Of a DNA stretch of 64,000 nt, positions 7,622 through 20,954 are shown piece by piece. The translations under genes and the position numbers were made by a program. Within the stretch, counting starts at the first letter, position 1, and each line of letters starts with the position of its first letter. Under the pieces are notes generated by a model. It saw only the letters and a program-made list of their open reading frames with translations, was not told the DNA's origin and ran no database searches. The DNA is from Elusimicrobiota bacterium (GTDB taxonomy: Bacteria > Elusimicrobiota > Elusimicrobia > UBA1565 > UBA9628), in contig JAUYSH010000074.1 of NCBI GenBank assembly GCA_030696455.1, forward strand, positions 1 to 64,000, written 5' to 3'.

Positions 7622-7656
7622 GAAGGCCCGCGCGATTCGTCGTCGCGCGGGCCTTC
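7622..7656 (-). terminator. Rho-independent terminator of the triplicated PspA-like gene
   Basis: 14-bp stem gaaggcccgcgcga/tcgcgcgggccttc, followed on minus strand by cTTTTatag. Confidence 0.85.
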
Positions 7657-7677: not shown

Positions 7678-10600
7678 TTACAGGAAGAGGATGAGCGAGC
7701 CGAGCCCGCCGATCGCCGCGCCCAGGAGGCCGTAGCCGATCACCGCGAAGAACAGCTTGTCCATGTCCAGCTTGGCCTTCTTGATGTGATCGAGGTAGAC
7801 GTACGAACCGACGGCGAACGCGACGAAGCCGGCCGCCGCTCCCAGCGCGAGCCAGCCGATCGCGGCCAGGCCGGCCAGCGACGCCAGCGGCAGCAGCCCG
7901 AGCGACGAGAGCATCCCGCCCGCCGAGCCCTTGGCCTTCTTCGCCGCCTCGATGTGGGCCTTGCGCTTGGCGAGCTCGTCGGCGATCTCCTGGGTGCGCA
8001 GGGAGTCCTTGGCCTTCTTCAAGACCTGGTCGGGGTTGGACTCGACGGCGTCCGTGGTCCCTTTCGCGTCGGCGACCTTGTCGTTGACCGCGCCGTCGAA
8101 GCGGTCGAGGTTGTCCTTGAGGTCCCCGATCTGGAAGCCGCCCTTGAGCTCGGCGATCTGCTTCTGGATGTCGGCGGCCTTGGACTTGGTCAGGCCGGCC
8201 TGGATCTTCGCCAAGGTCTCCTCGCGCTCGGAGAAGAAGCGCGCGCGCTCGTCCTTGATGTCCTCCAGCGCCTTCTCGGAGGAAGCGAGCTGCTGCCGGC
8301 TCGCGGCGACGGACGCCTCGAGGGTCTTCTGGCTGTTGAGCAGGCCCGCGGCCATGATGTCGTTGGCCGGGTCGTTGTCCGACAGGAGCGCGGTGATCGT
8401 CTTGTCGAAGTCGGCGATCTTCGCCTGCTCGCCGGCGATCTGCTGGCGCAGCTTCTCGACCAAGGTCGAGGCCTCCTGCACCTTGCGGTTGTAGACGGGC
8501 TTGGCGTCGTTCAATTGATCGATGAGGCGCTGGGCCAGGATCTCGGGCGTCTCCAGCTTCTTGACGCCCATGCCGAACAGGCCGAGCAGGGCGTTCCACG
8601 CGCGGGCGAGCAGGTTCAGCAGCGGCTTGATCGAGAACGAGGACTTCGGCGCGGAGGCCGCCGGGGCCTCGACGGGCGCGGCGACGACGGAGGAGCCGGC
8701 GGGGGTGGACGCGACCGACGCCACGACGGCGCCGTCCTTCTGATTGGCGCGGATGGTCGCGATCACGCCGATGGAGAGCGCGATGCCGGCCGGGACGAGG
8801 AAGCCGAGGCCGACGCTGAACGCGCCGACCGTCAGGCCGAGCTTGGCGACCGCGAGGGAGGCGGCGCCGCCGATGACGAGCGCGCCGAGGCCGATCACGG
8901 CGAGCTGCCGGCCGAGCCAGCGGCCCTGCTCCGGGGCCATCGCGATGGCGAAGAGGCCGAGCAAGGAGAAGACGGCGGCCGAGATCCACGGGGAGATCAA
9001 GGCGAAGCCGATGCCGATGACCTTGGCGAACAGGCCCAGGGCCCGGCCCTGGGTCACGGCGCCGCCGGCGGCGCCCTTGGCCTTGCGCGCGGCCTCGATG
9101 GCGGCCTTGCGTTTGGCGAGCTCGGCCTCTATCTCTGACGACTTCAGGGAGTCCTTCGCTTTCTTTAATATCTGGTCGGGGTTGCTGTCGACGGAGTCGG
9201 CGGTGCCCTTCGCGTCGGCCACCTTGTCGTTGACCGCGTCCTCGAAGCGGTCCATGTTGTCCTTGAGATCCCCGACCTGGAAGCCGCCCTTGAGCTCGGC
9301 GATCTGCTTCTGGATCTCGGCGGACTTGGACTTGGTCAGGCCGGCCTGGATCTTGGCCAGCATCTCCTCGCGCTCGGAGAAGAAAGAGGCGCGTTCTTCT
9401 TTAATGGATATCAACGTCTTTTCGGAGATCGAGAGCTGTTCCTGGGTCATCAAGGTCGACGCGTCGACCGTCTTCTTTTGGTTGAGCAAAGACTCGGCCA
9501 TGACGTCGTTGAGGGGGTCGCTGTCGGAGAGGATCGCCGTCACGGACCGGTCGAGCTCGGCGGATTGCGCGGTCTGCTTCTCGATCTGCAGGCGGAGCTT
9601 TTCGACGAGGGTCGAGGCCTCCTGAACCTTGCGGTTGTAGATGGGCTTCTGCGCGTTCAGCTGGTCGATGATCCTTTGGGCCATCACCTCGGGCGTCTCC
9701 ATCTTCTTGACGCCGAGGCCGAAGATGCCCAAAGCCGCGTTCCACGCGCGGGCCAGGATATTGCGGAAGGGCTTGGAAACGAGCGCGATCGCGGCGACGA
9801 CCGCGGCGCCGATGCCGAGTTCCAGGATGAGTCCGCCTGCGGCGGTCTTGTCGTCGGCGGCGGGCGTCGCGGGCTTGTCCTTCTTGAAGATGTACTTGAA
9901 CGCCTCGCCGAGCAGGCTCGAGGCCAGCGCGACGCCGCCGAAGACGAGCGCGGCGGTGGTGGAGGCGACGGTGAAGCCGACGTAGCCGGCGAAGGCGACC
10001 GCGGCGACGCCGAGGCCGAAGCCGAGCACGCCGCCGAGGATGGCGATGCCCGCGGTCTTGGCGCCCGAGGTCTTCATGACCTTCTCGGCGAACACGCCCG
10101 CGGCGACGGCGCCGGCGCTGCCCAGGGGGATCACGACGCCCATCACGGAGGAGGCGGCCAGCAGGGCCGCGATCCAGCCGGTGTTGAGCCCGGCCCACAC
10201 GGCCATCGCGACGTTGACGCCGATGCTCACGGCCTTCAGCGCGCCGAAGGCGACGCCGCCGCCGGCCTGGCCCTTGTCCTGCTTCGCCTTCTCGATGGCG
10301 GCCTTGCGCTTGGCGATCTCGTCCTGCACTTCCTGGTTCTTGAGGGAGTCCTTGGCCTTCTTGAGGATCTGGTCGGGGTTGCTGTCGACGGAGTCCGCGG
10401 TGCCCTTGGCGTCGGCCACCTTGTCGTTGACCGCGTCCTCGAAGCGGTCCATGTTGTCCTTGAGATCCCCGACCTGGAAGCCGCCCTTGAGAACGGCGAT
10501 CTGCTTCTGGATGTCCGCCGCCGCGGACTTGGTCAGGCCGGCCTGGATCTTGGCGATGGTCTCCTCGCGCTCGGAGAAGAAGCGCGCGCGCTCTTCTTTA

Positions 10601-11553
10601 ATAGACGCGAGGGTCGCCTCGGCGAGGCCGATCTGCTCGTTGGTGGAGGCGATCGAGGCGCTAAGGGTCTTCTGCTGGTTGATCAGGCCCGAGGCCATGA
10701 CGTCGTTGAGCGGGTCGGAGTCGGAGAGCAGCGCGGTGATGCCCTGCTCGAGCTCGGCGACCTTGGCGGTCGCGCCTTCGACCTGGAGCTTGAGCTTTTC
10801 GACGAGGGTCGAGGCTTCCTGCACCTTGCGGTTGTACACCGGCTTGGCGGCGTTGAGCTGGTCGATGATCCTTTGCGCCATGACTTCGGGCGTTTCCAGC
10901 TTCTTGACGCCGATGCCGAGCATGCCCAAGACGGCGTTCCAGGCGCGCTTGATAAGGCTCACGATCGCGAGTTCGCCGGCGGCGGACGTCTTGGCCGCGG
11001 CCGCGCGCTCGATGGAGACGGGGGACTTGGCGGAGACCGTCTCGGAGCGGGAGAGGCCGGTTCGATTCGCCAGAGGCGAATCGCTCGCGGCGGAGCGGCC
11101 GAGGACCTCGAGGGTCGCGCGGCCTTCGGCCGACGAATTCTCGAAAAGCGCGTTCAAGGCGGCGCCCTTCTCGGCGACGCCGACATTCGCGTCCTGGGAC
11201 TTGATCACGGCCAGGGGCGAGCCCTTGACGGTCGCGGGCAGGGCCTTCGCGGCGGCGGCGACGGGCTTGACGGCGAGCGCGGCGGGGACGGGGGCGAGGG
11301 AGACGGGGGCGGCGATGGGGCTCGGGGCGGCGCTCAGGACCGGCGCGAGCATGACGCCCGGCGCCATCGTCGGCACGTTGAAGGAAGAAGCGCCGGGAAG
11401 GGGGCTGTGAAGCCCGGTGCCGATCGTCGGGGTCACGGAGATTCCCGAGACGGGTCGAGCCAAAGTCTGCGCGGCGGCGGTCAAGGTGAGGTGTCCGGGC
11501 CCGGCCACGAGAACGGCGGCCGACACGATCGAGGCGAGTGACTTCTTGAACAT
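7678..11553 (-). CDS. exported/membrane protein with three tandem PspA/IM30-like coiled-coil modules separated by hydrophobic blocks
   Basis: Signal peptide plus P/A-rich leader; three copies of RAWNALLG(M/L)FG(I/M/L)GVKK(L/M)ETPE(V/I)(M/L)AQR(I/L)IDQLN..KP(V/I)YNRKVQEASTLVEKL...LKDN(M/L)DRF(E/D)(D/G)AVNDKVADAKGT; SD-like ggaggaac. Confidence 0.8.
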   Translation of the reverse strand: MFKKSLASIVSAAVLVAGPGHLTLTAAAQTLARPVSGISVTPTIGTGLHSPLPGASSFNVPTMAPGVMLAPVLSAAPSPIAAPVSLAPVPAALAVKPVAAAAKALPATVKGSPLAVIKSQDANVGVAEKGAALNALFENSSAEGRATLEVLGRSAASDSPLANRTGLSRSETVSAKSPVSIERAAAAKTSAAGELAIVSLIKRAWNAVLGMLGIGVKKLETPEVMAQRIIDQLNAAKPVYNRKVQEASTLVEKLKLQVEGATAKVAELEQGITALLSDSDPLNDVMASGLINQQKTLSASIASTNEQIGLAEATLASIKEERARFFSEREETIAKIQAGLTKSAAADIQKQIAVLKGGFQVGDLKDNMDRFEDAVNDKVADAKGTADSVDSNPDQILKKAKDSLKNQEVQDEIAKRKAAIEKAKQDKGQAGGGVAFGALKAVSIGVNVAMAVWAGLNTGWIAALLAASSVMGVVIPLGSAGAVAAGVFAEKVMKTSGAKTAGIAILGGVLGFGLGVAAVAFAGYVGFTVASTTAALVFGGVALASSLLGEAFKYIFKKDKPATPAADDKTAAGGLILELGIGAAVVAAIALVSKPFRNILARAWNAALGIFGLGVKKMETPEVMAQRIIDQLNAQKPIYNRKVQEASTLVEKLRLQIEKQTAQSAELDRSVTAILSDSDPLNDVMAESLLNQKKTVDASTLMTQEQLSISEKTLISIKEERASFFSEREEMLAKIQAGLTKSKSAEIQKQIAELKGGFQVGDLKDNMDRFEDAVNDKVADAKGTADSVDSNPDQILKKAKDSLKSSEIEAELAKRKAAIEAARKAKGAAGGAVTQGRALGLFAKVIGIGFALISPWISAAVFSLLGLFAIAMAPEQGRWLGRQLAVIGLGALVIGGAASLAVAKLGLTVGAFSVGLGFLVPAGIALSIGVIATIRANQKDGAVVASVASTPAGSSVVAAPVEAPAASAPKSSFSIKPLLNLLARAWNALLGLFGMGVKKLETPEILAQRLIDQLNDAKPVYNRKVQEASTLVEKLRQQIAGEQAKIADFDKTITALLSDNDPANDIMAAGLLNSQKTLEASVAASRQQLASSEKALEDIKDERARFFSEREETLAKIQAGLTKSKAADIQKQIAELKGGFQIGDLKDNLDRFDGAVNDKVADAKGTTDAVESNPDQVLKKAKDSLRTQEIADELAKRKAHIEAAKKAKGSAGGMLSSLGLLPLASLAGLAAIGWLALGAAAGFVAFAVGSYVYLDHIKKAKLDMDKLFFAVIGYGLLGAAIGGLGSLILFL
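7918..8615 (-). repeat. PspA-like module 3 (approximate bounds)
   Basis: LARAWNALLGLFGMGVKKLETPEILAQRLID ... RKAHIEAAKKAKGSAGG. Confidence 0.8.
9060..9757 (-). repeat. PspA-like module 2 (approximate bounds)
   Basis: ARAWNAALGIFGLGVKKMETPEVMAQRIID ... RKAAIEAARKAKGAAGG. Confidence 0.8.
10260..10960 (-). repeat. PspA-like module 1 (approximate bounds)
   Basis: KRAWNAVLGMLGIGVKKLETPEVMAQRIID ... RKAAIEKAKQDKGQAGG; long stretches nucleotide-identical to module 2. Confidence 0.8.
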
Positions 11554-11655
11554 CGGGATGTTCCTCCGGGGTTTAGTGCGAACGATGGCTTATTCTATCG
11601 AGAAGCGTCGAAAAGGAGATGAGACCTTGGGGGTCATTTCAGGAATCTAATAGGC

Positions 11656-13101
11656 CTAGGAAATCTGGGACCCTGGCACCGGTGTCGTGGGCCCCGAGGC
11701 GAGGCGGGCGGCGACTTCGTGGGCATGGAGATGGCCGACCACGACGTGGATGGAGCGCGCTCCCGAGGCGGCGGCGCCGGCGGCGACGGCGTCGGCGATG
11801 GCGCGGGAACGAACGGAGACCGGATCGGCCGTCGCGCCCAGGGGCTGGGGCAATTCGAGCCCTCTTAAGACCTCGAGATCGGGCTTCGCGGTGAAGAAGT
11901 GACGGGCCTCGTCGGCGTACTGCTCGGCGATGTCCTCGAGGCCCTCGCCGCGGGCGCCTTCGGCGAGCAGGCGGCGCTTCCAGGCCATCAAGGGAAGCCC
12001 GCCCGAGAGCACGAGCCAAGCGAGAGCGCCCGTCAACGGCAGGAGGACCCAGGCGAAAACCGACGCGGGGGAGGCCAGCGTCCAGGCGAGGACGGCCAAC
12101 GCCGAGCCGGGGGCGACGGCCCAGTCGACGGCGCGCTTCAGGAACAGCGACGCGCGGGAGTGGCCCGGCGCGGCGGGGACGACGGCGGCGGGAGAGCCGG
12201 AGGCGGCGGCGTGATCGAGGGTCTCCAGGCCCGCCTTGTATCCATAATAAGCGGGGAGGTTCTGCTCGGAGTACAGCGCGTGGCCGGCGGCGACGGCGCT
12301 TCGGATCGTGGACAGCACCGCGCCGCGGCGCGGAGGGCCGTACTTGCCGTGGGCGACGCCGTGGACGAAGTAGGTGACGCCGTCGCGCTCCACCTTCAAG
12401 GCGGGGACGCGGAAGGTCTTGTCGACCGCGAACGCGGGAGCGACGGCGGAGGAGGTCTTGCGCCAGAGGCGGGTCAATAAGAAGCGGAACTCGTCTTCTC
12501 GAGAAACGGCAAGGGCGGATTCCTTGGAGCCGAGGACGCCTAACGCGGATAGACGGGACGCGGCGTCGGACGGGGACTGGGAATCGGAGAGAGCCTGGCC
12601 GAGAACGGCGGGGGCGACGCCGCGGGAGAGGAGTTCGGTTGAGGTGGGGAGGGAGCCGTCGAAGAGGGCGTCGAACTGAACGGACGCGGATTCCTCCGGG
12701 ACGGCGGCGCTCTGCGCGGAAACCGGAGCTTGCCGCGAGGACTTCCATGCGGCGACGGTTTTCGCCGCTTCGCGGCGGACGTCCTCGGCTTTCGAGGCCG
12801 CCGGCGTGACCGAAAACGACAACGTTAACGGCGACGGATTGTTAACGGCAACGGAAGGGTGCGCCAGGACAGGCAGGACAACGGCATTCGGCGTGGGGGA
12901 GATGGACGGCGACAGAGAGGGAGATAGCGACATGGACATCGACGGCAACGGCATGGAGGACTCGTTCAGACGGGTCATTCCGACGACCGGTGTTGAAGGC
13001 GCCGCCGGGGCGTTACGGATTATGCCGACTCGTACCTGCGCCGCGGCTGGCGCCGCGGCGGACAGAATCAATGAGAGGGCAAGAGTAAATCGGTTATCCA
13101 C
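11656..13101 (-). CDS. leader-bearing secreted/membrane protein with TraB/TIKI-like C-terminal region
   Basis: GTG at 13101 gives VDNRFTLALSLILSAAAPAAAQ; YFVHGVAHGKYGPP...ALYSEQNLPAYYGYK and C-term VVVGHLHAHEVAARL; two hydrophobic helices. Confidence 0.6.
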   Translation of the reverse strand: MDNRFTLALSLILSAAAPAAAQVRVGIIRNAPAAPSTPVVGMTRLNESSMPLPSMSMSLSPSLSPSISPTPNAVVLPVLAHPSVAVNNPSPLTLSFSVTPAASKAEDVRREAAKTVAAWKSSRQAPVSAQSAAVPEESASVQFDALFDGSLPTSTELLSRGVAPAVLGQALSDSQSPSDAASRLSALGVLGSKESALAVSREDEFRFLLTRLWRKTSSAVAPAFAVDKTFRVPALKVERDGVTYFVHGVAHGKYGPPRRGAVLSTIRSAVAAGHALYSEQNLPAYYGYKAGLETLDHAAASGSPAAVVPAAPGHSRASLFLKRAVDWAVAPGSALAVLAWTLASPASVFAWVLLPLTGALAWLVLSGGLPLMAWKRRLLAEGARGEGLEDIAEQYADEARHFFTAKPDLEVLRGLELPQPLGATADPVSVRSRAIADAVAAGAAASGARSIHVVVGHLHAHEVAARLASGPTTPVPGSQIS

Positions 13102-13127
13102 GGACTTCCAACGTTGAAAGTCCGTGG
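13098..13127. promoter_or_regulatory. 10-bp inverted repeat overlapping the GTG start of the TraB-like gene
   Basis: ccacggactt - 10 nt - aagtccgtgg; start codon (13099-13101) inside one arm. Confidence 0.6.
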
Positions 13128-13151
13128 CCGGTGTTTTGGTGGATATTTTTT

Positions 13152-16100
13152 TTACCAACCCGATGAACCGCCACCCGAGCTTGAACCGCCCCAACTTGAG
13201 CCGCCGCCGCTGGAGCCGCCGGAGGAGCGGCGAGAATCTTCCTCGCTGCGGCGGCGGCGGTCGTCCTCTTCCTGCTGGCGGCGTCGGCGCGCCTCTTCTT
13301 GACGCCGGCGCTCCTCTTCTTCCTCCCGCCTTCGGCGGGAGACTTCGGCCTCGGCGACTTGTATCGCTGAAATTGCCGCGCTGCGCGCGGCTTCCGCGTG
13401 ACGGATCGCGGTCTCGTAATCACCGTTGTTGAGCGAGGCCTTCGCCGAGTTTAAATTCCCTGAGCCGGGGGAGCCGGGAACGGACACTCCATAGGAACCG
13501 GTCCAGTTCGTGGCCTCCCGCACCTTCGACGCGGCGCTCGATATCTTTTCCGTCGCGCGGGCGGCGGCGGCTAATTCGCCTTTGAGCGACGCGGCGACTT
13601 GCGCGGCCTGGCTCGTGATCCGGTCCGCTTCGCGGTCGATCGTGGGCCATTCGCCGTGAGACGCATCCGACGCGGCTAAGGCGGAGGTGTAGGCGGACTT
13701 GAGACCGGCAAGCTCCCTTAATGCGCTGGTGATCGCCGGGCTGTCGGAGATCCCGTCCGACTGCGAGTCCCGGGCGAGGCGAGCCGCGGAATCAAGCTGC
13801 GTTTCGGCCGCCTTCAGGCTGCGCACGACTTCGTTGTAGGCGTCGCGGTCGTTGTTCACCTTGACCCAGAGCGAGTCCAGGCCCGCGGACACCGCCGCGA
13901 TCGACGCGGCGGCCTTGAAAGGATCGCCTTTCTTCATGTCGGCCGCGGCGCGGGCCGAGGAGAGCGCCTTGACGGACGTTTCGTAGGACTTGATCGTGTC
14001 CCGCATCGTGCGCTTGTCGTCGGGGATCTCGGTCTTCCAGGCGCGGGCCTTGGCCTCGAGCGTCTCGAGGAAGGCGCCGTTGTCGATCACGGCCTTGTCG
14101 AGGCGCGCGCGCTTGGCGGAGATCTCGTCGAGGCGGCCCTGGGCGATCTCCTCGTGGGCCTTGGCCTGGTCGAGCAAGGCCGCGGCCTCGAGGACCTTGG
14201 CCTCGCGGAAGGAGCGCACGGCCTTCTCGCGCTTGGACTTGGCGGCCTCGACGGCGACCGAGGCCTCGTCGATGTTGTCCTCGATCGTGCCGTTGGCGTT
14301 CGGGTGGGAGAAGTCGCCCGAGGCGAGACCCAAAACGGAGGCCGCGAAGTCGCGCTTGATCGTCTTGAGGACCTCGGCGCGCTCGGGGAGGAGGGCGTCG
14401 AGGCGTTCGGCCTCGGCGATGCGGCCGGCGACGTCGGACGCCTGCTCCTTCAGCGCCATATCAGTAGCGGCGACGATGGCGTTCGCCTGGCCGATGAGGT
14501 CCGCGCCGAGCTTCTGGGAGGCTTCCGCTTCGGCGAGCCTTCCGTCGCCGAGCTTTGAAGAAGCCTCGTCGAGCGCCACGGAGGCGGCGGTCAGGCGCTC
14601 GGTCGGGTCGTTCTGCGCTTCGCGCAGGACTTCGGAGGCCTCGAGGCCGAGGACGGAGGCGGTCCGCGCGCGCGCGGCGTCGACCGCCGCGGCCGACTTG
14701 ACGGCGTCGGCGCGCGAGGCGGCGATGCGGCCGAGGCCGTTCTTGGCCTTGGCCAGGTTCGTCGTGTGCTCCGCGTAGGCGGCCGTCAAAGCCGCCAGCC
14801 CCAAGGCCCCGTCGTTCTTGAGGAGGGAGGAGGCGAGCTCGGACGCGCTCTTGTCGAGCGCGGCGCGGCTGCCGGCGATCCACTGGGTCCCGACCGAGGC
14901 GGCGGCGAGCGCCGCGACGATGGGGTCGGTCACGGCGAGCTCGTCCTTGCGCATGGACAGCGCCAGCTCGGCGAGGGACTTGGCGTCGGAGGCCAGGCGC
15001 TCGGCGAGCGCGCCCTGGCCCTTCATCGCCCCGACGGGGTTCTTCGCGGCCTTGCCGCGCGCGGCGGCCAGGGTCTCGCGGGCCTGGGGAAGTATCGCGG
15101 CGGCGAGCGCCTCGATCTTGAAGAAGGCGCCGGCGGCGGCCTGCGAGGCCTTTTTCTCCGCGGCGGCGATCGCCGCTTCGGTCGCGTCGAACGCCGCGCC
15201 GTAGCCCGTGGACGCCTTCTCGATCTCGTCGAGGGCGGAGACGGCGGATTTAGACGTCGCGTTGAACTTGGCCATCACCGACTCGAAATTCTCCGAGACC
15301 GGCGCGTAATCCTTCGCCTCGCCGTACAGGTCGCCGCGCCAGTCGCTCGCCTTCTCGAACAAGGCGTCGAAGCCGTCCTCGGGCTTGAAGGTGAGCGGCT
15401 CGGTCGCGAGCATCTTCTCCGCCTGGAGGTAGCGCGAGGGCCAAAGCTGGTTGACGAGCCAGCCCAGGGTCATCGCCTTGGGGCGCACGAGGGCGGTCGC
15501 GCGGTCGTGGATGCTGCGAGCCATCGCGAGGTACAGCTTCGCGCGCCCGGCGTCCTTGCGGACCGAGGAGGCGGCGGCGGCGGTCTCCTCCTCCCAGCCG
15601 CGGGAAGCCGCGCCGGTGATGGGCCCGACGTAAACGTCCATGCGCTTGTCGAGCTCGTCGATGACCGCGTCGAGCTTCGTCTCGAGGATGCCGTCCCATT
15701 TCTGGAGCTCGGCCTCCGCCTTGCCGCGCGCCTTGCGGGCGCGCCAGTTGAGGAAGGCGCTGCCGCCGAGGGTCCCCAAGCCGAGCAGGACGAGGAAGAT
15801 CAAGGTCAGCATCGCGTTGCGGCTCGCGGCGGCGTCGGCGTCGGCGATGGTGCGCTCGGCGTTTGCGAGCGCGGACTTGGCGCTTTGCAGCCGCGACGCC
15901 CACGTCGAGGCGCCGAGCTCATGGGCCTCGCGGGCCTCGCGCAGGGACTGCTTGGCGGTGACGAGATCGGTGGCGGCGGAGCCGGCGCGCTCGCGGCCCT
16001 CGAGCTCTGAGAGCACGGACTCCGAGCCGGCGAGCTGATCGGCCCCGGCGGCGTGCTCGTTGAGGGCGGTCTGCACGCGGCGGACCTCGGCGGCGACGGA

Positions 16101-17795
16101 ATCGGCGGCGGACTTCGCGCCCGACGGGTTGGAGGCCACCGCAGACTCGGCGGAGGCGAGCCTCTCGCGCAGCGCGCGCAGGTCGGGGCGGGCGAGGTCG
16201 CCGGTCGCCTTGGGGTGGGCCTTGAGGAACGAGCCGGAGGCGCGCTCGAGAGCGTCCACCTCCGCCCGGACGGAGGCGATCATGGACTTGCCCGAGTCGT
16301 AGCTCGACTGATAGCTCGACATCGAGGAGGAGGCGGATCGCGCCGACGAGGTCACCGCCGCGGCGAGGCGGGCGGCCTCGGCGTGGGACTTTCCGGCGAG
16401 GGCCTTCTCGGCCGAGGCGAGCTGGCGGCCCAGCCCGGCGAGGTCGACGGCGCCGACGGTCGCGGCGGCGGCGGGATGGGCGCGCGCGAAGGCGGCGCGG
16501 GTCCGGGCGAGCTCCTCGAGCGAGGTCTTCGCCGAGGCGACCGAGGACTTCGCGTTCTGCGAGGCGGAGGCGATCGAGGTGTGGAGGCGAGCATCGATGT
16601 TGGTGACCGTCTCCTTGGCCGCGCCCATGATGTCGCCGCCGGCGCGCAGGCGGGCCTTCGCCCACTGGTCGAGGTTGCCGGGGAACTCGCGCTCGCCGTC
16701 GAGGCCGTTGACGCGCTGGGCCTCGGAGTTGCGCAAGAAGAGCTTGCGCTGCTCCATGGTGATGACGAGGATGGACCCGTCCGACAACCCCGTTTCAGTG
16801 TTTATTCGGGAAGAGAAGCCATCTTTCTTGAATATGCCCTGCCCCGCCCCGTACTCGACCGCGTCGTTGTCGCGGTGGGTGCGGCCCTCGGCGTCGCGGT
16901 AGGTCATGCCCGCGTTGCTCTGCACGATGATCACGGTCCAGTGCTTGCCCTCGAGCCAAGCGGCGAGCTGGCGCTGGGAGCCGGCGTCGAGGCCGGGGTT
17001 GCCGATGACGATCACCTTCGTCGCCGGGGTCCACTTCGCGATGGCGTCGTTGATGTCGGCGGCCTGCACGACCTGGACCTGCTGCTGTTGCGCGCCGATC
17101 TGAGCCATCATCGTCGTCGCGGGGACGTTGGGAAGTATGAGGGACTGCTGGGCGAGCGCGGGCCCGGCGACCGACATCGTCAAGGTGACGGCCATCATCG
17201 CGCCGACCGTCGCGCGCTTGAGCGCGTTCCAGGCCCGGCCGGGCGCGGCGAGCTTGGCGGGCTTCGACGCCGGGGCGGGGGAGGCGGCGACGGCGAAGGG
17301 CTGGGGGGCGCGCTCGCCGAGGGCGGCGAACTCAGCGGCCACGGTCTTGAGCGCGGCGGAGGCTTGGGCGGAGCCGGCGGTCCGCTCGGAGAAAGCTTCG
17401 ACGGCGGCCTCCAGCCGGGCGATCTCGGGCTCGCCGAGAGCTCTGACCGCCTCTGCCCGGACGGCGGGCGCCACGGGGGCCGCGATGAGCGCGCGGACAT
17501 AGCCGCCGGCGACGGTCGGGTTGGCGGCCAAGGCGCGCAGGCTCTCGGGGCGGACATCGGCCGCCTCGAGGAAAGCGATGATCGGAACGGCTCCGCCCGT
17601 GAGCGCGCCCGTCAGGCCGGGAACGCCGCCGGGCAGGCCGGGCAAGGCCGCGTTCAGCCCCTGGCTCGCCGCGGCGGCGCCGGCGGTGTTGAGCTGTCCT
17701 CCCTTGCCGGCGTTGGCGGCTTCCTGCACCTGGGCGGCCGCGGGGCCGGCGGCCAGAAATAGAGCGATACAAAGGGAGAGGGCGTGCTTGATCAT
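13152..17795 (-). CDS. very large TPM-domain-like membrane protein with long Ala-rich coiled coils and Gly/Ser/Trp C-terminal tail
   Basis: ATG 17795 (MIKHALSLCIALFLAAGPAAAQ); N-terminal alpha/beta region; TM MLTLIFLVLLGLGTLGGSAFL; tail SGGSSGGGSSWGGSSSGGGSSGW as in many TPM/YgcG proteins. Confidence 0.65.
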   Translation of the reverse strand: MIKHALSLCIALFLAAGPAAAQVQEAANAGKGGQLNTAGAAAASQGLNAALPGLPGGVPGLTGALTGGAVPIIAFLEAADVRPESLRALAANPTVAGGYVRALIAAPVAPAVRAEAVRALGEPEIARLEAAVEAFSERTAGSAQASAALKTVAAEFAALGERAPQPFAVAASPAPASKPAKLAAPGRAWNALKRATVGAMMAVTLTMSVAGPALAQQSLILPNVPATTMMAQIGAQQQQVQVVQAADINDAIAKWTPATKVIVIGNPGLDAGSQRQLAAWLEGKHWTVIIVQSNAGMTYRDAEGRTHRDNDAVEYGAGQGIFKKDGFSSRINTETGLSDGSILVITMEQRKLFLRNSEAQRVNGLDGEREFPGNLDQWAKARLRAGGDIMGAAKETVTNIDARLHTSIASASQNAKSSVASAKTSLEELARTRAAFARAHPAAAATVGAVDLAGLGRQLASAEKALAGKSHAEAARLAAAVTSSARSASSSMSSYQSSYDSGKSMIASVRAEVDALERASGSFLKAHPKATGDLARPDLRALRERLASAESAVASNPSGAKSAADSVAAEVRRVQTALNEHAAGADQLAGSESVLSELEGRERAGSAATDLVTAKQSLREAREAHELGASTWASRLQSAKSALANAERTIADADAAASRNAMLTLIFLVLLGLGTLGGSAFLNWRARKARGKAEAELQKWDGILETKLDAVIDELDKRMDVYVGPITGAASRGWEEETAAAASSVRKDAGRAKLYLAMARSIHDRATALVRPKAMTLGWLVNQLWPSRYLQAEKMLATEPLTFKPEDGFDALFEKASDWRGDLYGEAKDYAPVSENFESVMAKFNATSKSAVSALDEIEKASTGYGAAFDATEAAIAAAEKKASQAAAGAFFKIEALAAAILPQARETLAAARGKAAKNPVGAMKGQGALAERLASDAKSLAELALSMRKDELAVTDPIVAALAAASVGTQWIAGSRAALDKSASELASSLLKNDGALGLAALTAAYAEHTTNLAKAKNGLGRIAASRADAVKSAAAVDAARARTASVLGLEASEVLREAQNDPTERLTAASVALDEASSKLGDGRLAEAEASQKLGADLIGQANAIVAATDMALKEQASDVAGRIAEAERLDALLPERAEVLKTIKRDFAASVLGLASGDFSHPNANGTIEDNIDEASVAVEAAKSKREKAVRSFREAKVLEAAALLDQAKAHEEIAQGRLDEISAKRARLDKAVIDNGAFLETLEAKARAWKTEIPDDKRTMRDTIKSYETSVKALSSARAAADMKKGDPFKAAASIAAVSAGLDSLWVKVNNDRDAYNEVVRSLKAAETQLDSAARLARDSQSDGISDSPAITSALRELAGLKSAYTSALAASDASHGEWPTIDREADRITSQAAQVAASLKGELAAAARATEKISSAASKVREATNWTGSYGVSVPGSPGSGNLNSAKASLNNGDYETAIRHAEAARSAAISAIQVAEAEVSRRRREEEEERRRQEEARRRRQQEEDDRRRRSEEDSRRSSGGSSGGGSSWGGSSSGGGSSGW

Positions 17796-17866
17796 AGCCC
17801 GCAGTATAACCGGAGAGGGGGGTCCGGCGAATGAGCCATCGGGGCCCAAAGCCGCCAGGTAAGGGG

Positions 17867-17905: not shown

Positions 17906-17972
17906 GAAAGACTAACGGTTTCGGGCCCGTAGGTCCCATAAGAATGATTATTTCTTTGGATAAAATTGCGTG

Positions 17973-20954
17973 ATGACGAAGTTTGTCGGTATGGCCGTGG
18001 CATTATCGTTGCCGTCATCGTCCATGGCTCAAGTGAAAGCCGGTCTTCCTTCGAGTCCTCGACAAGTCTCTTTGCCGTTCCAATCCGTCGGTTCCAATTT
18101 ATATTCCCCTTCCGTCTTAATCTCACACGTCGCGTTGACCGTTCCCACTTTGACCTCCGTTCCTTCTATAATGCCCTCGCCGGTCGCCGTTCCCATCGCC
18201 GCCGCCCCCATCATGAAGAACCCCCAAAAAATCACCGCGGCCAAGCCCGCTCTCGACGCCCTGACCGCCGGTCTCGCCAAGACCCCCGCTGCCGCGGCGG
18301 AAACCTTGAACCTCCATTTCGACGCCGCGAAGGGACATGCCTGCGCCGCTTGCGCCGGCGACGAGGTCCCCTCCGGCGCGCCGTCGGCTCAAGCCCCGCT
18401 GCCGCCGTCCTCCTCCGGCCGCCTGTCGAAGACCGTGCTCCCGAGCAAATACGACCTCCGCCTGAGGCTCGACCCGGAGAACGCCGCGTTTTGGGGCCGC
18501 GTCAAGATTTCTCTGGAATCGAAATCCCCCGTCAAACAGCTCGTCCTTCATGCCCTCGACTTGTCGTTGACGTCCGTCGTCGTCGCCGGCCGCCGTCTCG
18601 ATCCCTCGAAGATCGTCATCGACGCCAAGGCCGAGACCGTGACGTTGCTCCTGGATAAGCCGTTGAAAGGCCGTGCCGACGTCGAGATCGAGTACTCGGG
18701 AAAGATGAACGAGTTGATGCGCGGTCTGTACAAGTCTCGCGGTAAGAATGGAGCGAAGGACGAGGCGTGGGCGTTCACCCATCTCGAGCCGACGCACGCC
18801 AGACGGGTCCTGCCGTCTTTTGATGAGCCGGCATTCAAAGCGATTTTTAAACTGACGCTCGACGTTCCGTCCGGCCTGACGCCGCTCTCCAACATGCCGC
18901 CGGTCTCGGACACGATCCTCGACGGCCGCCGGACCGTCGTTTTTCAAGACACCCCGAAGATGTCCTCCTATCTGTTGGCCGTCTTCGCCGCCCGCCTCGA
19001 GTCCCGGTCTCGCAAGGTGGGCAAAACCGTCCTCACCGTCTGGGCCGCCCCGGAGCAGATCGCGCAGGCCGATTTCGCCCTCGACGCTGGTGAAAAGGCG
19101 CTCGCCTACCTGAACAAGTATTTCGGCGTGCCGTACATGCTGCCCAAGCTCGACATGGTCGCCGCGCCCGACTTCGCCTCCGGGGCGATGGAGAACTGGG
19201 GCGCGATCCTTTATCGCGATACGTCCCTGCTCATCGATCCGAGATTGTCCTCCGACGCCGCCAAGCGCCGCGTCGCCGAGGTCGTCAGCCACGAGATCGT
19301 GCACCAGTGGTTCGGCAACCTCGTGACGATGGGCTGGTGGAACGACCTGTGGCTCAACGAGGCCTTCGCGACCTGGCTCGCCTACAAGGTCGTCGACTCC
19401 TGGAAGCCGGCGTGGAAGGTCTGGGACGAGTTCGACCAGGGGAAGCGCTCGCCCTTGTCGATCGACGCCCTGCCGGGCACGCGCCCCGTGCGCTCCGACG
19501 CCGCCACGCCGGCCGAGATCCAGGCGCAGTTCGATCCCATGTCGTATCAGAAGGGCGGGGCGCTGCTGAGGATGATCGAGAGGTATATCGGTGAAGGGGC
19601 TTTCCGCAAGGGCGTGCAGGGCTACATGAGGCGCTTCGCGTATAAGAACGCGGAAGCGAAGGATCTCGCGAAGGAGTTCGAGCGCGCGTCGGGCAAGCCC
19701 GTGCGGAAGATGATGGATAAGTGGCTGAGCCAAGGGGGAGTACCTGTCGTGTCGGTTACGGCCGAAGGCCGGGTGGTCACTTTGACGCAGGAACGATTCT
19801 CCGCTTTCAACCTGAAGGCCGACACCCGATGGTCCATCCCCGTCGTGGTGCGCTATCGTCTCAAAGGAGAAAAGAAAACGCGCGTCGTAACGACCCTTTT
19901 GGAAACGGCAACGAAGAGTGTGACCTTGCCGGGCGCGGGCGAAATACTTTGGGTGTACCCGAACGCGAACGAGACCGGGTATTACCGCTTCGCGCTGTCC
20001 CCCGAGCTGTTGTCCGCGGCGCTGTCGCGCCGCGGGGACCTGTCACCGGTCGAGAGAGCGGGGCTTCTGAACAATTCATGGGCCCAAGTCCGCGCCGGAC
20101 AAATGCCGGTCGATTCTTTTCTCGATTCGCTCGCCGCGTTCCGCGGCGACGCTTCGCGTCTGATCGTCGAGGACGCGTTCGGGTACCTGAAGACGATCCG
20201 CCAGGAATTGGCCGGATCCGACGCCGAGCGCGACGCGCTCGGCGTTTTTGCGGCGGATTTCTTCGGGCCGCTCGAAAAACAGCTCGGGTGGGATAAGAAG
20301 AAAGGCGAGAGCCAGGAAAGCACTCTCACCCGCCCGACGGTCCTCAACGCGCTCGCCCTTCTCGCGCCGAAGGCGCTCGACCAGGACCAGGTCTCGGCGC
20401 GGCTTAAAAAATACCTCGCCGACCCGTCCTCGATCGACTCATCCCTCTCCGCCGTCATTCTGACCGCCGCTGCGCGGCGGAATGATCCGGCGTTGTTCGA
20501 GGCGTTCCGAACGAGGCTCGCCGCGCCCAAGACGCCCGAGCAGAAAAGCCTGATGCTGCGCGCCCTCGCGGAATTCTCCGAGCCGGCGCTTCTCGACCGC
20601 TATCTCGCGATGACTTTGTCTGACGAGATCCGCGCGCAGGACGCCTGGATGCCCTATATCTGGATGCTGTCGAATCCCGCGACGCGCGAGCGCTCGTGGA
20701 CGTTCGTGAAGGCGAACTGGAAGGCGCTGTCGGCCAAGCTCGGGCCCCGCGGCGGCACGCGCGTGATCGGCGCCGCCGGCGGCCTCGTCTCGCCCGCGCT
20801 CAAGGCCGAGGTCGAGGCCTTCTTCCGCGCCCCCGAGAACGAGATCGAGATGGCGCGCAAGACCCTCGACCAGACCCTCGAGTCCATCGGCCTCGGCCTG
20901 CGCTTCAAGGAAGGCCAGACCTCTTCATTCGCGGGCTGGTCCTCCAGGCGTTGA
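17973..20954 (+). CDS. M1 family aminopeptidase with long P/S-rich N-terminal leader
   Basis: GAMENWG, HEIVHQWFGNLVTMGWWNDLWLNEAFA; TAAAAT 6 nt upstream of ATG 17973. Confidence 0.9.
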   Translation: MTKFVGMAVALSLPSSSMAQVKAGLPSSPRQVSLPFQSVGSNLYSPSVLISHVALTVPTLTSVPSIMPSPVAVPIAAAPIMKNPQKITAAKPALDALTAGLAKTPAAAAETLNLHFDAAKGHACAACAGDEVPSGAPSAQAPLPPSSSGRLSKTVLPSKYDLRLRLDPENAAFWGRVKISLESKSPVKQLVLHALDLSLTSVVVAGRRLDPSKIVIDAKAETVTLLLDKPLKGRADVEIEYSGKMNELMRGLYKSRGKNGAKDEAWAFTHLEPTHARRVLPSFDEPAFKAIFKLTLDVPSGLTPLSNMPPVSDTILDGRRTVVFQDTPKMSSYLLAVFAARLESRSRKVGKTVLTVWAAPEQIAQADFALDAGEKALAYLNKYFGVPYMLPKLDMVAAPDFASGAMENWGAILYRDTSLLIDPRLSSDAAKRRVAEVVSHEIVHQWFGNLVTMGWWNDLWLNEAFATWLAYKVVDSWKPAWKVWDEFDQGKRSPLSIDALPGTRPVRSDAATPAEIQAQFDPMSYQKGGALLRMIERYIGEGAFRKGVQGYMRRFAYKNAEAKDLAKEFERASGKPVRKMMDKWLSQGGVPVVSVTAEGRVVTLTQERFSAFNLKADTRWSIPVVVRYRLKGEKKTRVVTTLLETATKSVTLPGAGEILWVYPNANETGYYRFALSPELLSAALSRRGDLSPVERAGLLNNSWAQVRAGQMPVDSFLDSLAAFRGDASRLIVEDAFGYLKTIRQELAGSDAERDALGVFAADFFGPLEKQLGWDKKKGESQESTLTRPTVLNALALLAPKALDQDQVSARLKKYLADPSSIDSSLSAVILTAAARRNDPALFEAFRTRLAAPKTPEQKSLMLRALAEFSEPALLDRYLAMTLSDEIRAQDAWMPYIWMLSNPATRERSWTFVKANWKALSAKLGPRGGTRVIGAAGGLVSPALKAEVEAFFRAPENEIEMARKTLDQTLESIGLGLRFKEGQTSSFAGWSSRR

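Follow-up and report, generated by a model that had tools for sequence, protein, structure and literature searches.

Three co-directional genes on the minus strand, at 7678–17795 (−) of the 64-kb window (by which we mean the whole stretch of DNA analysed here), form a unit encoding, in this order, a TPM-like protein, a TraB-like protein and a protein with several PspA domains on one chain, hereafter poly-PspA. On present evidence the unit is real, conserved and, as far as searched, restricted to the Elusimicrobiota, a single close-relative scan having extended beyond that phylum. The interpretation that we prefer, and to which we give roughly an even chance, is that the operon encodes a Psp-type machine for membrane maintenance, concatenated and tethered to the membrane: the TPM-like and poly-PspA proteins look like a distant, rebuilt version of the Bacillus subtilis pair of PspA and YdjH, the TPM membrane protein that anchors it, with PspA concatenated and provided with membrane segments of its own. 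PspA normally acts as single units shoring up damaged membranes, whereas here two to four of them share a single membrane-bound chain, next to a very large partner that resembles a sensor; this suggests an unusual, permanently tethered membrane-repair machine.

Gene layout and distribution

The genes are closely spaced, with intergenic gaps of ~50 bp (TPM-like/TraB-like) and ~100 bp (TraB-like/poly-PspA), and they are the only ones lying between a divergent gene for a predicted secreted M1 aminopeptidase (17970–20954 (+), start at 17970) on one side and a terminator-like hairpin on the other (Table 1). The hairpin is the sole long stem in the region; it has a T-rich tail and begins ~22 bases past the last stop codon. 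All three proteins start with a predicted signal peptide ending in AAAQ or similar, as judged by eye and from hydropathy. The preliminary description had reported three tandem minus-strand genes, and their coordinates are upheld; it had also spoken of very large fusion proteins, of which the size holds, being due to the PspA repeats with their membrane cassettes and to a long helical region, but not the joining of partners. Indeed, a TPM–PspA fusion is ruled out, as the TPM-like and PspA proteins are encoded by separate genes. A sigma-70 promoter scan found none; additionally, a TATACT hexamer is located ~8 bases upstream of the TPM-like ATG (window 17795–17815 (−)), and, therefore, the transcript could be leaderless. 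The downstream flank in the window, which is contig 59 of a 4.0-Mb genome, carries M20 and S9 peptidase genes. The divergent M1 gene also adjoins the TPM-like gene in three relatives (G003, G010 and G016; loci L066, L067 and L069), and does not do so in G036 or G018.

Table 1. Features of the three-gene unit, in window coordinates
Feature	Position	Strand	Basis
TPM-like gene, 1547 aa	13152..17795	-	ATG start at 17795
Signal peptide of TPM-like protein, MIKHALSLCIALFLAAGPAAAQ	17730..17795	-	by eye and hydropathy
Second signal-peptide-like segment, KRATVGAMMAVTLTMSVAGPALAQ, right before the TPM domain	17145..17219	-	sequence and hydropathy
TPM-fold domain	16632..17072	-	AlphaFold2 model and Foldseek
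Single TM segment, then RARKARGK (predicted cytoplasmic side)	15753..15809	-	hydropathy
G/S-rich C-terminal tail, ending SGW	13155..13223	-	sequence
TraB-like gene, 481 aa	11656..13101	-	GTG start
TraB-like segment 1, VHGVAHG and YSEQ (invariant His, Glu)	12175..12429	-	homolog alignment
Predicted TM hairpin separating the motif segments	12007..12156	-	hydropathy
TraB-like segment 2, SVRSRAIAD...VVVGHLH (invariant Arg, near-invariant GxxH)	11695..11823	-	homolog alignment
Poly-PspA gene, 1291 aa	7678..11553	-	Pfam and repeat comparison
Leader: signal peptide and P/A-rich region, LNALFENSS motif	10963..11553	-	sequence
PspA repeat 1	10270..10962	-	Pfam and repeat alignment
Membrane cassette linking repeat 1 to repeat 2: four TMs, a fifth just before repeat 2	9772..10239	-	hydropathy
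PspA repeat 2	9073..9765	-	repeat alignment
Membrane cassette linking repeat 2 to repeat 3: 3-4 TMs	8746..9006	-	hydropathy
PspA repeat 3	7927..8619	-	repeat alignment
C-terminal membrane segments, 2-3 TMs	7681..7899	-	hydropathy
Terminator-like hairpin, 14-bp stem, end of unit	7622..7656	-	consensus scan

The TPM–TraB–PspA block is present, in the same order, in 12 of 341 Elusimicrobiota genomes belonging to several families. Full-length searches of 58 relatives picked out one and the same set of 12 for the TPM-like and the TraB-like gene, the one exception being a weak match to the leader region of the TraB-like protein in G013; across the 341 genomes of the phylum, the TraB-like protein was recovered from 12, the TPM domain from nine and the PspA repeats from nine, every set falling within the same 12. 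Where a module genome is missing a component, the contig ends inside or beside the unit. The preliminary description had proposed gene order as a check, and the order proves to be conserved in every relative whose contig permits a view, including a second family (G036) in which the flanks are different. Hypergeometric values for the co-occurrence are tiny; they are blind to shared descent and linkage, and for this reason we do not count them as evidence. Canonical PspA was seen in three members of the 58-genome sample (G028, G040 and G045), all of which lack the module. A scan for close relatives across 84,980 species genomes returned Elusimicrobiota alone, the nearest being Elusimicrobiota MAGs, among them the complete chromosome CP096137. 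In G006, there is a second copy of the TraB-like gene, together with further leader proteins.

The three proteins

The PspA homology of the 1291-aa protein is, at the level of sequence, secure. The Pfam model PspA_IM30 matches it with an E-value of 6.1e-20 in three stretches, each spanning approximately positions 2–216 of 220, which bears out the earlier call of a triple PspA protein. Across the relatives, 18 of the 21 repeats match PspA_IM30, and do so above other coiled-coil models; a profile of these 21 repeats aligns colinearly with single-domain PspA of the canonical kind from other Elusimicrobiota (hhalign probability 96, E 4e-9). Invariant residues mark the first amphipathic helix (R-W-N..G..G) as well as an E-x-P motif that matches the EDP of canonical PspA. 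Searches of the three unit proteins with Pfam, NCBIfam and PADLOC gave nothing useful besides PspA, and the weak matches to defence families look like coiled-coil noise. The sole other PspA match in the window's own genome, on contig C69, is weak and covers part of the model only; we did not count it.

Repeats alternate with TM cassettes, and their number varies: there are three in the window, two in G036, three in G006 and four, over two frames, in G010, these counts being limited by the contigs of the other module genomes, which break within the array. The two repeats of G036 are 86% alike and only ~61% like repeat 1 of the window; those of G006 are 94–100% alike and ~35% like the window repeats; and repeats 2 and 4 of G010 are identical. 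As repeats are alike within an array and less alike between lineages, amplification or homogenisation of the arrays must have proceeded separately across lineages, and this in turn suggests that PspA multiplicity itself matters. This last array shows an apparent change of frame, due either to a sequencing error or to a genuine break: in the complete genome CP096137, the poly-PspA frame shifts after repeat 3 (L069:12364-17426), and repeat 4, in another frame, is identical to repeat 2.

For the 1547-aa protein, a TPM identity is confirmed at the level of the modelled fold. An AlphaFold2 model of the domain, made from nine homologs, has a core pLDDT of ~90, and the six top matches that it gave in a Foldseek search of the PDB are all TPM proteins (best match 7tbr, E 2.5e-4, probability 1.00), with Psb32, PG_0361, BA41 and TLP18.3 among them. 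The sequence profile is colinear with that of a canonical Elusimicrobial TPM protein, with an hhalign probability of 5%, yet it scores above 150 of 150 column shuffles. Pfam has no match in the protein, and PF04536 has none in the genome or at the locus; against the nine homologs, PF04536 picks out one at E 0.071, below the Pfam cut-off. Searches against PDB sequence profiles with the TPM-like domain, the TraB-like protein and the PspA repeats gave no relevant matches. The TPM call in the preliminary description stands at the level of fold, though PF04536 itself is silent. The protein comprises a signal peptide, the TPM fold, a helical stalk, one TM, a largely helical region of ~870 aa, predicted to be cytoplasmic, and a G/S-rich tail with a terminal Trp; YgcG-type TPM proteins have similar tails. 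Fold, export and the order of signal peptide, TPM domain, TM and glycine-rich tail are therefore shared with the wider TPM family (YgcG, Psb32 and TLP18.3), from which the protein differs in being below Pfam detection, in lacking the signature loop and in being several times longer. Given that the GYGLEG..PD signature of canonical TPM is not kept, a role for the domain as a scaffold or sensor would be likelier than catalysis.

That the 481-aa protein is related to TraB is plausible but unproven. After its signal peptide, it presents the arrangement GxxH-E-[TM hairpin]-R-GxxH: in 12 homologs, one His, the Glu and the Arg are invariant and the second GxxH is nearly so, whilst the Gly of the first GxxH is replaced by Pro in some. 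The order of these motifs is that of the clan comprising TraB/PrgY/GumN-TIKI and ChaN/EreA-like proteins, and the spacing is alike (26/24 versus 28/28 residues); the TM hairpin in mid-motif sets the protein apart from the clan, as does the lack of a significant profile or fold match. Two independent TraB-clan profiles align best, and in the same register, at the R...GxxH segment (hhalign E 0.04–0.06, probability ~1%), with scores matched by 0 of 150 and 3 of 150 column shuffles, respectively. Pfam gave no match for the protein, PF01963 did not exceed its cut-off at the locus, and a PDB fold search with the model found nothing significant; in a search of viral folds, a viral TraB protein ranked second, non-significantly. 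The motif order thus favours the TraB-like assignment made earlier, whereas the silence of PF01963 and of the fold searches does not. A distinct family of the ChaN/TraB clan, marked by GENHG...VGQAHV motifs (L101–L111), is, within the 58-genome sample, confined to this genus, the window's own genome (C111) included.

Possible function and alternative readings

In Bacillus subtilis, PspA depends on both YdjG and YdjH for its recruitment to the membrane, and YdjH interacts with PspA (PMC8581546). PMC11237479 presents the TPM protein YdjH as the conserved PspA partner in Firmicutes, in which TPM is followed by a low-complexity region or a long coiled coil, and puts tandem PspA_IM30 repeats at <2% of PspA homologs. 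The precedent given in the preliminary description, TPM beside PspA in ydjFGHI, is, therefore, a real one (PMC11237479 and PMC8581546). Elusimicrobiota are not mentioned in the main text of PMC11237479, nor did we find exported tandem repeats there; a literature search gave no relevant paper joining Elusimicrobiota and PspA. Like the B. subtilis pspA(ydjF)-ydjG-ydjH-ydjI operon, the Elusimicrobial unit has a PspA gene beside that of a membrane-anchored TPM protein, and the TPM-like protein resembles YdjH in its order of signal peptide, TPM, TM, long helical region and G-rich tail. It differs in that PspA is present in two to four copies per chain, with TMs and a signal peptide of its own; in that the TPM signature residues are lost and the gene order is TPM–TraB–PspA; and in that a TraB-like gene takes the place of an SPFH (YdjI-like) or zinc-ribbon (YdjG-like) gene, neither of which is among the three genes of the unit. 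Other tandem PspA_IM30 proteins also carry two or more PspA domains on a chain; poly-PspA is distinguished from these by the TM cassettes between its repeats, its exported leader and the linked TPM-like and TraB-like genes.

A Psp-type machine of this kind might work as follows. The exported TPM-fold domain and helical stalk would lie at the outer surface of the inner membrane, held by one TM, whilst the long helical region inside the cell could engage or organise PspA. The two to four PspA (ESCRT-III-superfamily) domains, with TM cassettes as joints, would constitute a ready-made array residing permanently in the membrane, so that nucleating or stabilising a coat may take little recruitment. 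The TraB-like protein, secreted and with a membrane hairpin, might be a metal-dependent hydrolase or protease that regulates the other two. Of this scheme, the gene content and order, the co-occurrence of the genes, the PspA repeats and the TPM fold are demonstrated here; the topology, contacts between the proteins, membrane repair as their task and the chemistry of the TraB-like protein are inferred. A TPM-type (YdjH-like) partner is encoded beside PspA, as judged from the fold match and conserved adjacency, and no PspF, PspBC or Lia regulator was seen adjacent to the unit. Hence, the divergent Psp-like system of the preliminary description gains from the conserved order, the TPM fold and the B. 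subtilis precedent, and loses from the want of an adjacent Psp regulator and an SPFH partner; from the families only, we infer an envelope-stress response. If this reading is right, evolution has made PspA arrays that are covalently linked and carry their own membrane anchors, a natural counterpart of the linked-subunit constructs for nucleation of ESCRT-III-type polymers, and the PspA–TPM partnership has been kept in a deep, uncultured phylum, where it offers a fixed-stoichiometry system for what TPM domains do for PspA and tests whether PspA can function outside the cytoplasm.

The last point bears on the most serious alternative, which we regard as possible but rather improbable: an extracytoplasmic membrane-remodelling device, in which exported PspA repeats coat either the inner or the outer membrane on its periplasmic side, with the TPM domain and TraB-like protein also outside. 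The signal peptides on all three proteins are in keeping with this, and a crude hydropathy scan, the source of all our TM calls and itself a point against relying on them here, places no TM between the leader and repeat 1 of the window protein. In G036 and G006, the scan finds one TM there, which would return repeat 1 to the cytoplasm. Counting the TMs between repeats 1 and 2 in the window protein (G000), G036 and G006 gives an odd number where the TM just before a repeat is taken to span fully, and an even one otherwise; under either count, at least one PspA domain would be extracytoplasmic, provided that the signal peptide works, an arrangement that would be unusual and is unproven. Conversely, within the hairpins, positive charge is carried by loops on the same side as PspA, favouring PspA inside, and known PspA works at the inner leaflet. 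Moreover, if all PspA domains were exported, they would have no contact with the predicted cytoplasmic helical region of the TPM-like protein. A tandem array of exported, concatenated PspA/ESCRT-III domains on one inner-membrane protein, acting extracytoplasmically or alternating between faces, with exported TPM-like and TraB-like partners, is accordingly something that we propose only tentatively.

We consider it unlikely that the unit serves, in chaperone-like fashion, the assembly of a particular complex. Such a function of TPM with PspA is favoured in PMC11237479, the TPM relatives in the PDB include photosystem II factors and a mycobacterial respiratory supercomplex, and the patchy distribution of the unit could track a particular complex; however, no genes for respiratory or other complexes are linked to it, its flanks being M1, M20 and S9 peptidases in the window and different in other families. 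Still less credible are surface or adhesion proteins with incidental PspA-like coiled coils, that is, a secreted low-complexity cluster devoid of Psp function: low-complexity leaders, coiled coils, modular linkers such as KKDGANGG and the weak scores of other coiled-coil families are outweighed, in our view, by the full-length, colinear PspA matches, by the conservation of W, N and G in the amphipathic first helix and of E-x-P, and by the TPM fold encoded next door.

Recurring linkers and leaders

The G006 poly-PspA (L068:9697-15495 (-)) has six copies of a KKDGA/V/I-NGG linker, set between its TM and PspA cassettes, and relatives use DDKTAAGG- or DDKGAVGG-like linkers in the same place; the recurrence of such linkers suggests that cassettes have been shuffled in the poly-PspA genes. 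The N-terminal leader likewise appears to be mobile between proteins. In the window, it combines the signal peptide and P/A-rich stretch with a motif like SPLAVIxSQDAxVGVAEKGAALNALFENS, and the same leader heads otherwise unrelated large proteins in the genus, including in genomes that lack the PspA module (L017, L020, L022, L031, L032 and L068:3130-6435).
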